Program-made: the position numbers and the translations under genes | In this document: piece by piece, positions 1 to 5,692 of the stretch | Numbering within the stretch: position 1 is the first letter of the stretch | Layout of the letters: each line of letters begins with the position of its first letter | Source: a virus | Length of the DNA stretch: 31,650 bases | Strand: one strand, 5' to 3' | Virus record (IMG/VR): IMGVR_UViG_3300012012_000202 | Coordinates: 1-31,650 of that record | The notes under the pieces: model-generated | What the model was told of the DNA's origin: nothing | Databases searched by the model: none | What the model saw: the letters and a program-made list of their open reading frames with translations, nothing else

Positions 1-402
1 CTCTTCCCATGTCATATTACGGGTATCAGGTTTGGGTTTAGTTTTTTTATTTGGTTTATCTTCATTGTGAGCGAATATCCAATAAGATAAGTCAGCGTTA
101 TTAAATACTGCTTCTAATCTTTCTCCCATTAATGCTCTCCACTCTTCCTTTGTTTTACATTTAAATGTTTTAGTAGCCATTGCTTTAAAGAGGGGACCTG
201 TTGTTTTATATCCATCTCTTAACGGATAAGGCCTTCTGCCTGTTGTTGCTGGTCTTCTACCATTTGCTAATGCTTTCTCTTTATTGTAATTGTTTGCCCT
301 TTTACTTCTACATTGCTTACATATGTTTGTTGCGAACTTATGCTTTTGGGCAATCTCTTTTGTTTCTCCGCAATGTATGCAAGTTCGTACTTCAATTCTC
401 AT
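1..402 (-). CDS. Zinc-finger hypothetical protein, partial (C-terminus outside window)
   Basis: An open frame runs from an ATG at 402 off the left edge, 134 codons without a stop. The N-terminus has two CxxC pairs (C8/C11 and C28/C31), which look like a treble-clef or ribbon-type zinc site. A basic stretch with GRRP repeats follows, then a segment rich in Trp and Lys (KTKEEWRAL, YWIFAHNEDK). The start overlaps the end of the sigma-like gene by 11 nt, so the two are probably translationally coupled. The zinc-finger head resembles that of the GIY-YIG protein at 2307-2831 and heads seen on phage nucleases, but no nuclease core is visible in the part present. Function unknown; DNA binding is an inference. 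Confidence 0.7.
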   Translation of the reverse strand, partial: MRIEVRTCIHCGETKEIAQKHKFATNICKQCRSKRANNYNKEKALANGRRPATTGRRPYPLRDGYKTTGPLFKAMATKTFKCKTKEEWRALMGERLEAVFNNADLSYWIFAHNEDKPNKKTKPKPDTRNMTWEE

Positions 403-2918: not shown

Positions 2919-3122
2919 TTATCCAAAAAATTTATCAAAAACTTCTTCTTCAAATACTGATGTTTTGATTGTATCCTTAACTAATGGTTGATTAAAGTAC
3001 CTATACCATTCAGCAGGGTTCTTAGCTAACTCATGCCCAAACTTTGCATCTTCTGATAATTCAAAGTTAGGGTCTACTATTATTTCATTAACTACTTTTT
3101 TCTTATTATGCAAAGATTCCAT
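2919..3122 (-). CDS. Hypothetical protein, 67 aa
   Basis: A 67-residue acidic protein with no recognisable domain. It contains a central helical-looking stretch (EDAKFGHELAKNPAEWYRYF) and an acidic C-terminus ending in FDKFFG. Its start overlaps the end of the DUF4373 gene by 17 nt, so it is probably translated from the same mRNA and may act with that protein. Function unknown. Confidence 0.6.
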   Translation of the reverse strand: MESLHNKKKVVNEIIVDPNFELSEDAKFGHELAKNPAEWYRYFNQPLVKDTIKTSVFEEEVFDKFFG

Positions 3123-3885
3123 TTTTATATTGTTTTAATTTGTTTCTATAATTAGTTTGTGCTGAAGTATCACCTGGCAAATACATTTCTAATAAATTAT
3201 CAAACCCTCCATAATCTTCATCTATTTCTCTCATTACTGAATTGTATTTAAATCTACTATCTAAATCTACAAACTTTTGTATTACTTTATCAAGCATTTC
3301 ATAACTGAAATTAACTTCTGTTTCATCAATAAAGTAATCAACTTCATTATTTTCTATTTCAGGTAAATCAGGAGCATTATACGCAGCAAGTAGTTTACTT
3401 TTATCTAATATACTTTGCTTTACTTTACTATTGTCTACTTTACTTTCCTTTACTTTACTTTGTCTATTATTGGTATCAATAACTTCATTATTGTTAACAT
3501 TAACCCCACTCAACTTACTTATTGGTGAGTTATTACTACAATAATCCTTTCTACGAAGCAATACTGTATCCTCTAATCTTTTTGTAAATTTAGGACAATG
3601 TAAGTAACCATAATCAATTCTAAATAAATCTAACTGAATACAATAGTTAATAATATCCTTTAACTCATCAGCATCGCAATCATATTCAGATGTCAATAAT
3701 TCAATGTTACTATCATCCCATTTAATTTCAAAGTATTCAGTATCACCCAATAATTCTAATGTGATAATATAAATTGAATATCCTAAGTGTTTATACTTCC
3801 TACGAAGTGCTTTAATCTTAATGTCGTTTCTCATATCACAATCGTGTGAGAAATAATCAACATTATGTTTTACAGGTCTTGCCAT
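3106..3885 (-). CDS. DUF4373 (Lin1244/Lin1753-like) replication-type protein
   Basis: 259 residues. The N-terminus ARPVKHNVDYFSHDCDMRND and the following winged-helix-like region (LRRKYKHLGYSIYIITLELL) match the DUF4373 N-terminal domain known from phage and plasmid replication proteins. Residues about 150-175 form a low-complexity Lys/Ser/Val linker (KVKESKVDNSKVKQS), encoded by a direct DNA repeat at 3412-3466. The C-terminal 80 residues resemble a separate small domain. I place the start at 3885 (MARPVKH); the longer frame from 3924 begins inside a terminator-like hairpin and its first 13 residues look spurious. It is the first gene after the promoter at 4010-4041. A role in initiating phage DNA replication is inferred. 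Confidence 0.75.
   Translation of the reverse strand: MARPVKHNVDYFSHDCDMRNDIKIKALRRKYKHLGYSIYIITLELLGDTEYFEIKWDDSNIELLTSEYDCDADELKDIINYCIQLDLFRIDYGYLHCPKFTKRLEDTVLLRRKDYCSNNSPISKLSGVNVNNNEVIDTNNRQSKVKESKVDNSKVKQSILDKSKLLAAYNAPDLPEIENNEVDYFIDETEVNFSYEMLDKVIQKFVDLDSRFKYNSVMREIDEDYGGFDNLLEMYLPGDTSAQTNYRNKLKQYKNGIFA
3412..3466. repeat. Imperfect ~25-bp direct repeat inside the DUF4373 gene
   Basis: Two copies, at 3412-3437 and 3442-3466, differ by one substitution and one missing base, and each is built from ACTTTA units. They encode the low-complexity linker of the replication-type protein and could also act as iterons. Confidence 0.6.
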
Positions 3886-3894
3886 AATCTTAAT

Positions 3895-3943
3895 AAAAAA
3901 CCCCATTGAAAGTAAGAATCGCACTCTTACCTTCTCTGGGGTT
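3895..3943 (-). terminator. Terminator-like hairpin in the leader of the replication gene
   Basis: On the minus strand a 7-bp lower stem (AACCCCA with TGGGGTT), a 2x2 internal loop (GA/AA) and a 10-bp upper stem (GAAGGTAAGA with TCTTACTTTC, one G-U) close a 7-nt loop GTGCGAT. The stem runs into a T tract ending at 3895, 10 nt before the start codon at 3885. This placement suits an attenuator rather than the end of an operon. Confidence 0.7.
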
Positions 3944-4005
3944 GGTTTGGAATTTCTTCCGTTATCTTTAATACAATGTGCGATATTGTATGTTTTTTCT
4001 GAACT
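3895..4005 (-). promoter_or_regulatory. Structured 5' leader with two hairpins whose loops are complementary
   Basis: Transcription from the promoter at 4010-4041 should start near 4005 and give a leader of about 120 nt before the ATG at 3885. Hairpin 1 (3991-3971) has a 7-bp stem ATACAAT/ATTGTAT and loop ATCGCAC. Hairpin 2 (3943-3899) has loop GTGCGAT. The two 7-nt loops are exact reverse complements over their full length and the match does not extend into the stems, which points to a loop-loop (kissing) contact. The second hairpin is terminator-like, so the contact could control read-through into the gene. The ligand or partner, if any, is unknown. Confidence 0.6.
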
Positions 4006-4009
4006 GAAA

Positions 4010-4041
4010 CAAATATACTACAATTATTTTAAATTACCAAA
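4010..4041 (-). promoter_or_regulatory. Consensus Bacteroidota promoter for the early/replication operon
   Basis: On the minus strand TTTG (4041-4038) is followed by exactly 20 nt and then TATATTTG (4017-4010), a full match to TTTG-N20-TAnnTTTG. The -33 region reads ATTTGGTAATT, the same as in the endonuclease promoter. Confidence 0.75.
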
Positions 4042-4535: not shown

Positions 4536-4805
4536 CTATTTGCCTCTTTCTTCTAAATATTTTATCTCTACTCTTAATGCTGATACTTCTTCTACTAATT
4601 TTAGGATTTGTGCTCTCATTTCATCTTTCTCTTTAGATGATTGTTCTAATAGTAATTCTAATTTACTAATTCTAGTCTGACAATCCATTCGGATATATCT
4701 TTCATCATCTTCTTTATGTGATGCTCTTTTCTCAAAGTATCTCCACGCAGATGCTCCACCTAATGTGGTTATTGCCGTTATGATTACTGTGTATATATTT
4801 TCCAT
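4536..4805 (-). CDS. Membrane-anchored coiled-coil protein, possible lysis protein
   Basis: 89 residues. Residues about 4-20 are hydrophobic (IYTVIITAITTLGGASAW), one membrane segment near the N-terminus. A short basic stretch follows, then a long charged coiled coil to the C-terminus. This outline fits a holin accessory or inner-membrane spanin subunit, and the position at the end of the late operon suits a lysis role, but no specific family motif is visible. Its ATG overlaps the upstream stop as TAATG. A membrane-bound structural protein is the alternative. Confidence 0.55.
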   Translation of the reverse strand: MENIYTVIITAITTLGGASAWRYFEKRASHKEDDERYIRMDCQTRISKLELLLEQSSKEKDEMRAQILKLVEEVSALRVEIKYLEERGK

Positions 4806-5692
4806 TATTTATTTGCTTTTGGGTGTCCTTTAGGTAACAAATCAAAATCAGTATCATACTTTGGATTTTCAGGTCTACCATTCTTCAGTAAGTATAAATA
4901 AGCATTTACTCTAGCGTATGCCCATTGTTCTGCTGATTTTACTGCCGGCGAATGTGATGTATTAAATGCACCTAATCCTCTTTGGAATACTGATTTAAGT
5001 TGCCCTAATGTAGCATTACCATTTTTAGTATTTGATTCCTTTTCGTTAAATTCTTTTACTTTACCTTCTAATGTTTTCTCTTGCTCAGCGGTTACCTTTG
5101 CAGATTTACCACTTGCATCTCCCTTAGCTGTACCTTCACCTTTTGGATTAGGATTAGGTGTGTCAGACTTAGGTGCTTTAGGTGATTCTTTTATACCACC
5201 TCTCGGACCTACTTCTGCTAATTCTTCTTTGTGATATAAAGGTTCACTATCTTCACTATGTACTTCACCAGTCATTAATCTACCATCAGGACCTTTATGT
5301 GTTGGACCTGTATATAGTTCACCATCTGCAGTATAATGTGGAACACCTTCTGCCATTTCATCTATTGGTCCTCTACAATCAGGTACCTCTTTACCATCAA
5401 GTATCTTTGTACCGACTTGAATATAATTTTCCCAACATGGTTCTTCAAATTCGTATTCACCATTTGGTAGAATCTGTCCTAAGTTTATTCCTCTATACTT
5501 TGTATCGTATGCTACTCTAGCCATTACTTTAGATTGAGTATCTTTAATCTTACTCATCTTATCTTTATCGTAATATGAATTACAAATTGCAGCAGCTTGA
5601 CTTACTTCCTTACCGGCTTCTACCTCAATTGGTATGCAGTAGTTTAAATATTTATCTCTACTTTCTCCTGCTTTTGGTTTATCTACTGGCAT
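4805..5692 (-). CDS. Virion-associated hypothetical protein with GES...AIC motif
   Basis: 295 residues. The N-terminus has KPKAGESRDKYLNYCIPIEV followed by QAAAICNSYYDK, a pattern I associate with head-related proteins of phages of Bacteroidota. The middle contains short acidic repeats (HYTADGELYTGPTHKGPDGR) and a Pro/Gly/Lys-rich linker. The C-terminal 70 residues (FQRGLGAFNTSH, then EQWAYARVNAYLYLLKNG) resemble a domain of unknown function found in marine phage proteins, possibly DUF5824. It lies between a protease-like gene and the last late gene. Role unknown; a capsid-internal or processing-linked protein is possible. Confidence 0.6.
   Translation of the reverse strand: MPVDKPKAGESRDKYLNYCIPIEVEAGKEVSQAAAICNSYYDKDKMSKIKDTQSKVMARVAYDTKYRGINLGQILPNGEYEFEEPCWENYIQVGTKILDGKEVPDCRGPIDEMAEGVPHYTADGELYTGPTHKGPDGRLMTGEVHSEDSEPLYHKEELAEVGPRGGIKESPKAPKSDTPNPNPKGEGTAKGDASGKSAKVTAEQEKTLEGKVKEFNEKESNTKNGNATLGQLKSVFQRGLGAFNTSHSPAVKSAEQWAYARVNAYLYLLKNGRPENPKYDTDFDLLPKGHPKANK

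Follow-up and report, generated by a model that had tools for sequence, protein, structure and literature searches.

The leader of a replication gene in an IMG/VR virus record is, judging by sequence comparison, a member of an RNA family common to related uncultured phages, and the loops of its two hairpins, H1 and H2, almost certainly pair with each other or have at least been selected for the ability to do so. We read the element, with moderate confidence, as a cis-regulatory leader RNA, namely a transcription attenuator of phage replication genes that is gated by intramolecular kissing of these loops. The stretch of DNA analysed, hereafter the window, is the whole 31,650-base record, in which the leader and its gene lie on the minus strand.

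Architecture of the window leader

Rereading of the sequence and folding recovered both hairpins with the stems, loops, GA/AA internal loop and T tract that an earlier note had described, and both lie between a promoter and the start codon of the DUF4373 gene, as that note had it (Table 1). What it called a consensus promoter is indeed a promoter, of the Bacteroidota type rather than the sigma-70 consensus. Its placing of a terminator-like hairpin 10 nt before the ATG (at 3885) is correct when counted from the T5 run ending at 3896, the distance from the T6 being 9 nt. The two loops, each exactly 7 nt long, are perfectly complementary. The leader folds at −35.5 versus −19.7 kcal/mol (z −5.1) and beats 200 of 200 dinucleotide shuffles; the minimum free energy program closes one G.U and one U-A pair within the H2 loop. 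H2 is very stable (−24.9 kcal/mol) and H1 alone is weak (−2.5 kcal/mol).

Table 1. Parts of the replication gene leader in the window
Feature	Position	Strand	Basis or remark
−33 box TTTG, Bacteroidota-type promoter	4038..4041	−	sequence; TTG-18..22-TAnnTT upstream in 24/36 related leaders
−7 box TATATTTG, 20 nt from TTTG	4010..4017	−	sequence
Predicted RNA start	about 4003–4006	−	sequence
H1, close to RNA 5' end; stem ATACAAT/ATTGTAT (7 bp), 7-nt loop ATCGCAC at 3978–3984	3971..3991	−	
Linker TAAAGATAAC, conserved	3961..3970	−	columns invariant in A2 alignment
Linker core ATTAAAGAT (includes last base of H1)			common to most type B leaders (type B ACATTAAAGAT)
P2, small hairpin (GGAA GAAA TTCC)	3949..3960	−	type A only
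H2, terminator-like, 7 + 10 bp, GA/AA internal loop, loop GTGCGAT at 3918–3924	3899..3943	−	
U-tract T6, directly 3' of H2 GGGG arm	3895..3900	−	
Replication gene DUF4373 / Lin1244_N (MARPVKHN...)	3106..3885	−	Pfam PF14297 E 1.3e-17; phrog_2562 replication initiation protein E 6e-28

The chance of 1 in 16,000 that had been attached to the loop match applies to two given loops but not to the window as a whole, where about 0.1 comparable pairs are expected: 60 dinucleotide shuffles of the window, with every hairpin pair allowed, gave 6 comparable kissing pairs. Judged from the window alone the match is suggestive and only moderately improbable, and the reality of the pairing is decided by comparative evidence.

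A family of leaders with two architectures

Relatives were gathered by protein search, by linker patterns that excluded the loops and by profile search. The element is present in about 45 uncultured phage contigs, which supplied 37 distinct complete leaders, and because these were found by loop-free linker patterns or by protein, the sample was not selected for complementarity. The records searched had one copy each. The window's leader and replication protein recur without change in L012, an 8.4-kb contig from a different sample.

The leaders fall into two types. Type A (the window, L003/L127, L030–L046, L063, L084, L098 and L128) consists of H1, the linker TAAAGATAAC, the small hairpin P2 and H2, the kissing loops being 7 nt long; P2 is retained as GGAA/TTCC, GAAC/GTTC or GAACTT/AAGTTC. 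Type B (L007, L009, L069, L071, L080, L081 and L099–L125) has a short GUCC/GGAC stem in H1, whose loop combines an 8-nt kissing segment with about six more bases, mostly ATTAAAGAT; P2 is missing from this type, and its H2 likewise carries a kissing segment of 8 nt. The two types have the whole plan in common, but hardly any sequence beyond the ATTAAAGAT linker core. Spacing from loop to loop is constant at 53–55 nt in type A and 43–47 nt in type B.

Several candidates were set aside: the pattern matches L047–L062 are coding or chance, opposite-strand matches of the model reflect the near-palindrome of H2, and a weak match in L044 (944–1025) is an ordinary terminator.

Compensatory change in the kissing loops

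The H1 loop is the exact Watson-Crick complement of the H2 loop in all 37 distinct leaders, through 21 different pairs, the longest exact complementary segments being 6 nt in L128 and 7–10 nt elsewhere. Equal-length loops paired across leaders at random match in 8.7% of cases. In the A2 alignment of 16 distinct type A leaders, 7/7 kissing pairs show two-sided changes and none a one-sided change, with 93.8% of cells paired; the unpaired row of each pair is L127, shifted by one column in the MAFFT alignment but perfectly paired in its own sequence. The A3 alignment of 21 type B leaders has two-sided changes in 6/8 kissing pairs, again no one-sided change, and 99.4% of cells paired. The covariation score of the structure was reached by 0 of 500 shuffles and falls four- to six-fold when the partner is slid by one column. 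If each type descends from a single ancestor, the 21 pairs imply, whatever the tree, roughly 19 or more pair changes, with complementarity restored each time. At the finest scale, the only two differences between L031 and L043 fall one in each loop and compensate each other, and one and the same pair occurs in L030 and L033 with H1 and H2 having swapped loops. As plain duplexes, the kissing helices are computed at −7.4 to −15 kcal/mol.

The stems covary as well, with 4/7 pairs of the type A H1 stem and 9 pairs of the H2 stem changed on both sides. G.U pairs are absent from the kissing helix in A2 and A3 yet common in H2, and their conservation in type B H2 indicates folding as RNA rather than DNA. 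The kissing loops are nevertheless the most variable part of the element: column entropy is 0.98 in kissing columns versus 0.54 in stems for type A and 0.81 versus 0.29 for type B, and 35–40% of the differences between close relatives fall in kissing columns, which make up 14–17% of columns.

Complementarity maintained by compensatory change, the hallmark of kissing-loop RNAs as a structural class, is thus found across 21 pairs with none broken in 37 distinct leaders, which bears out the kissing-loop reading of the earlier note. The covariation analysis that it had proposed in related phages turned up no leader with intact stems and lost loop complementarity, the pattern it had named as contrary, because homologous leaders restore complementarity after each change.

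Promoter, terminator-like hairpin and leader geometry

A TAnnTT[AGT] motif stands 15–45 nt upstream of the first kissing loop in 29/36 leaders, compared with 22% of control positions, at an offset that is nearly constant within each type (mostly −32 to −35 in A and −17 to −20 in B), and in 24 of the 36 a TTG box lies 18–22 nt farther upstream. Given the layout of Bacteroidota promoters, the RNA presumably starts at or just before H1. Transcription from inside or after the hairpins, which the earlier note had named as contrary evidence, is not what this promoter predicts, since in most leaders it sits ahead of H1 at a fixed distance.

Six to eight of the 8 bases 3' of the H2 stem are T in 36/37 leaders; the one outlier, L009, carries GGGGTTTTACTTTTT, its count having been taken beyond the end. 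The first reading frame of the relatives begins 6–21 nt past the element. The family thus conserves the anatomy of a leader attenuator, a GC-closed hairpin with a U-tract between promoter and start codon. The attenuator that had been proposed before the replication gene is well supported by this arrangement of promoter, H2, U-tract and ATG, termination itself being what we infer from it.

By a rough estimate the linker is just long enough to span a coaxial H1-kiss-H2 stack, so that cis pairing would be feasible but taut. Folding the leaders minus the 3' arm of H2, with pseudoknot-free folding, showed no antiterminator helix, and the loops of H1 and H2 complement only each other. On these sequences, kissing would act as a lock rather than as a classical switch helix. 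A kink-turn in the H2 internal loop, judged by eye, does not fit.

Downstream genes

By blastp at 1e-3, the first proteins downstream of the element sort into nine groups with no similarity to one another, and most of those with a PHROG match are replication initiation, helicase loader or primosomal proteins (phrog_2562, 6251/1701, 11233, 428, 270, 186, 4707 and others). In L102 and L110 a small frame comes first, followed by a protein that by eye resembles the replication-initiator-like ones of L100 and L105. DUF6291 (L031, L119) and the MAQRFTD/MAKRFTD group lack an assigned function, and a replication role for these two and for L044 is at best weakly indicated. The element is not tied to DUF4373 / Lin1244_N alone, given the nine downstream groups and the lack of the element in the DUF4373 relatives L066, L068 and L070. 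In a further DUF4373 relative, L067, the leader (about 1330–1450) is quite different, a long hairpin ATTAGAAGGGGAGTA...TACTCCCC with a T run.

An identical 102-nt leader precedes DUF6291 genes in L031, L034, L036 and L038 and a MAQRFTD gene in L035, which indicates that leader and replication gene recombine as separate modules. Six of the checked type A records and the window combine related terminases (58–76% identity) and the same leader type with different replication genes. With the leader standing before unrelated proteins, specific regulation by any of these proteins is unlikely, and the RNA itself or a host factor is the likelier regulator.

Directly downstream of the replication gene, the window encodes an HNH/NUMOD3 homing-type endonuclease (1817–2296) and an endonuclease VII-like gene (2307–2831); a putative endonuclease-like frame, identified by eye, lies likewise downstream in L003 and L004. 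Upstream, on the same strand as the replication gene, is a DUF5824 protein (4805–5692) with no assigned function.

Distribution, hosts and published RNAs

Genes in 11 near-full phage records are almost all on one strand, at 31–34% GC, and none of these records contains a second copy of the element. No integrase was found in 18 records, for which reason the phages are probably lytic. They probably infect Bacteroidota, a host assignment drawn from the promoter type. The terminase gene of G013 is divided between the two ends of the record, which suggests that the genome is complete, circularly permuted and about 32 kb long.

Rfam searches at gathering score (RNAI, ctRNA_pT181, C4 and others) gave no match, and searches by E-value gave nothing convincing. 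The element was not found among sequenced phages and plasmids, a 26-base match to a Streptococcus phage being chance. A linker-pattern scan of genome contigs returned 95 matches, which a structure check reduced to scattered chance pairs. In 299 genomes from the family to which a Flavobacterium MAG belongs, searched without a positive control, R2 gave 0 matches and R1 three weak ones that are terminators without kissing, leaving no true element. The open-access literature searched does not describe the element, an absence that is no proof of novelty, and neither do main-text passages of two papers on structured RNA discovery (PMC2864571, PMC8040213). A GUCCY-hairpin motif is named in the main text of PMC2864571, in passages giving no Rfam accession.

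Proposed mechanism and alternatives

We posit that the RNA starts at the promoter just before H1 and that the H1 loop can capture the H2 loop as it leaves the polymerase, ahead of synthesis of the 3' arm of H2. H2 with its U-tract would form an intrinsic terminator directly before the start codon, so that most transcripts would end as a leader RNA of roughly 100 nt and readthrough would express the replication protein. Kissing would then delay or strain closure of the very stable H2 and favour readthrough; we prefer to see it as an antagonist of H2 closure because H2 is stable without help. Attenuation of this kind is possibly supplemented by allele-specific feedback, in which terminated leader RNA bearing the same loops might accumulate and compete in trans, and expression would fall as phage copy number rises. 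The variable loops would suit a specificity function, by analogy, but may also reflect neutral compensatory drift.

Such competition could also be the main principle of control, the terminated leader of one copy binding the nascent leaders of others, which would provide feedback on copy number and exclude related phages in an allele-specific way, all without an antisense gene. We regard this as a tentative alternative. It would account for the kissing columns being the most variable of the element and enriched in differences between close relatives and for an identical leader serving different genes, and there is a precedent in IncK plasmids, which loop-only changes make compatible (PMC10724649). 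However, many RNAs have fast-varying loops, neutral compensatory drift looks alike, pairs of close relatives are not independent, and cis pairing enjoys a large concentration advantage. The further step, which we think doubtful, is a self-recognition system of lytic phages, in which the leader would use its kissing loops to gauge the dosage of its own gene and loop alleles would diversify so that the replication of co-infecting relatives is not shut off.

Readthrough from upstream genes is likely, as genes in these phages lie nearly all on one strand, and H2 might only block such transcripts while the kissing fold, with H1 at the extreme 5' end, serves mRNA stability or translation. This is unlikely, since a terminator already stands upstream of the promoter in L044 (944–1025) and L003/L127 and other leaders follow an opposite-strand frame, yet H2 and its U-tract are kept in both situations; loop complementarity, moreover, is unnecessary for a barrier. 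That the linker core ATTAAAGAT is the sole sequence common to both types could point to a riboswitch, with this segment and the kissing fold sensing a ligand or protein, but the lack of an Rfam match, the shortness of the conserved segment beyond the linker and P2 flanks, and hypervariable loops unusual in an aptamer make this quite improbable. An inverted repeat acting at the DNA level, as protein-binding or origin sites that fall in the loops by chance, would be expected to lack G.U in the kissing segments, as is observed; given the exact loop placement in both architectures, the conserved G.U pairs in the stems and the U-tract after H2, which speak for RNA, we consider it very improbable.

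Comparison with known RNA regulators

In ColE1, RNA I and RNA II kiss through 7-nt loops that are fully paired. The window element resembles this system in its 7-nt kissing loops, but the ColE1 loops pair in trans between transcripts of opposite strands and control a primer rather than an mRNA. A ColE1-like RNA acting in trans, which the earlier note had entertained, finds no backing in the family: an antisense promoter is not conserved (antisense motif in 9/36 leaders versus the sense motif in 24/36), and loop copies in hairpins elsewhere in 11 near-full records are scattered matches with no recurrent second partner. Trans action by the leader RNA itself is possible. The CI RNA of phage P4 and the C4 antisense RNA (Rfam RF01695) act in immunity, where termination or pairing controls replication or antirepressor operons. 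They are likewise phage RNAs that control such operons, but the present element has no Rfam match, belongs to probably lytic phages and carries both partner loops in one leader.

For plasmid pT181, a countertranscript-driven attenuator of the replication initiator is described (PMC3753616; Novick 1989, cited in PMC10724649). The likeness extends to a 5' leader of a replication gene, a terminator before the start codon and kissing hairpins; pT181, however, relies on an antisense RNA together with an antiterminator sequence, whereas here the partners lie in one RNA, no antisense promoter is conserved, and pseudoknot-free folding showed no antiterminator helix. The repZ/repA leaders of IncI and IncL/M plasmids form pseudoknots by long-range loop pairing, according to work cited in PMC10724649. 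As described there, they share with the element intramolecular loop pairing in a replication-initiator leader and specificity in the loops, but their pseudoknots act on translation under an antisense RNA, unlike the terminator-like H2. Variable recognition loops are also a feature of plasmid copy-control RNAs (PMC10724649). GOLLD and ROOL are encoded by phages, and kissing loops of GOLLD, ROOL and OLE, some of them intermolecular, are supported by covariation (PMC12286853). The present kissing loops are backed by the same kind of evidence, but those are large noncoding RNAs and this is a 100-nt mRNA leader.

Significance

RNA control of replication is classic in plasmids and, to our knowledge, little described in lytic phages. 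What we describe appears to be an RNA element, not recognised before, that controls DNA replication in phages: a single module, whose intramolecular loop pairing is strongly supported, serves phages with differing replication genes, and its recognition letters evolve fast. The family supplies natural compensatory mutants for studying how kissing loops may gate a terminator, and lets one ask whether phages count genome copies or exclude relatives by RNA. If the self-recognition reading is true, it would amount to incompatibility mediated by RNA with no antisense gene involved.
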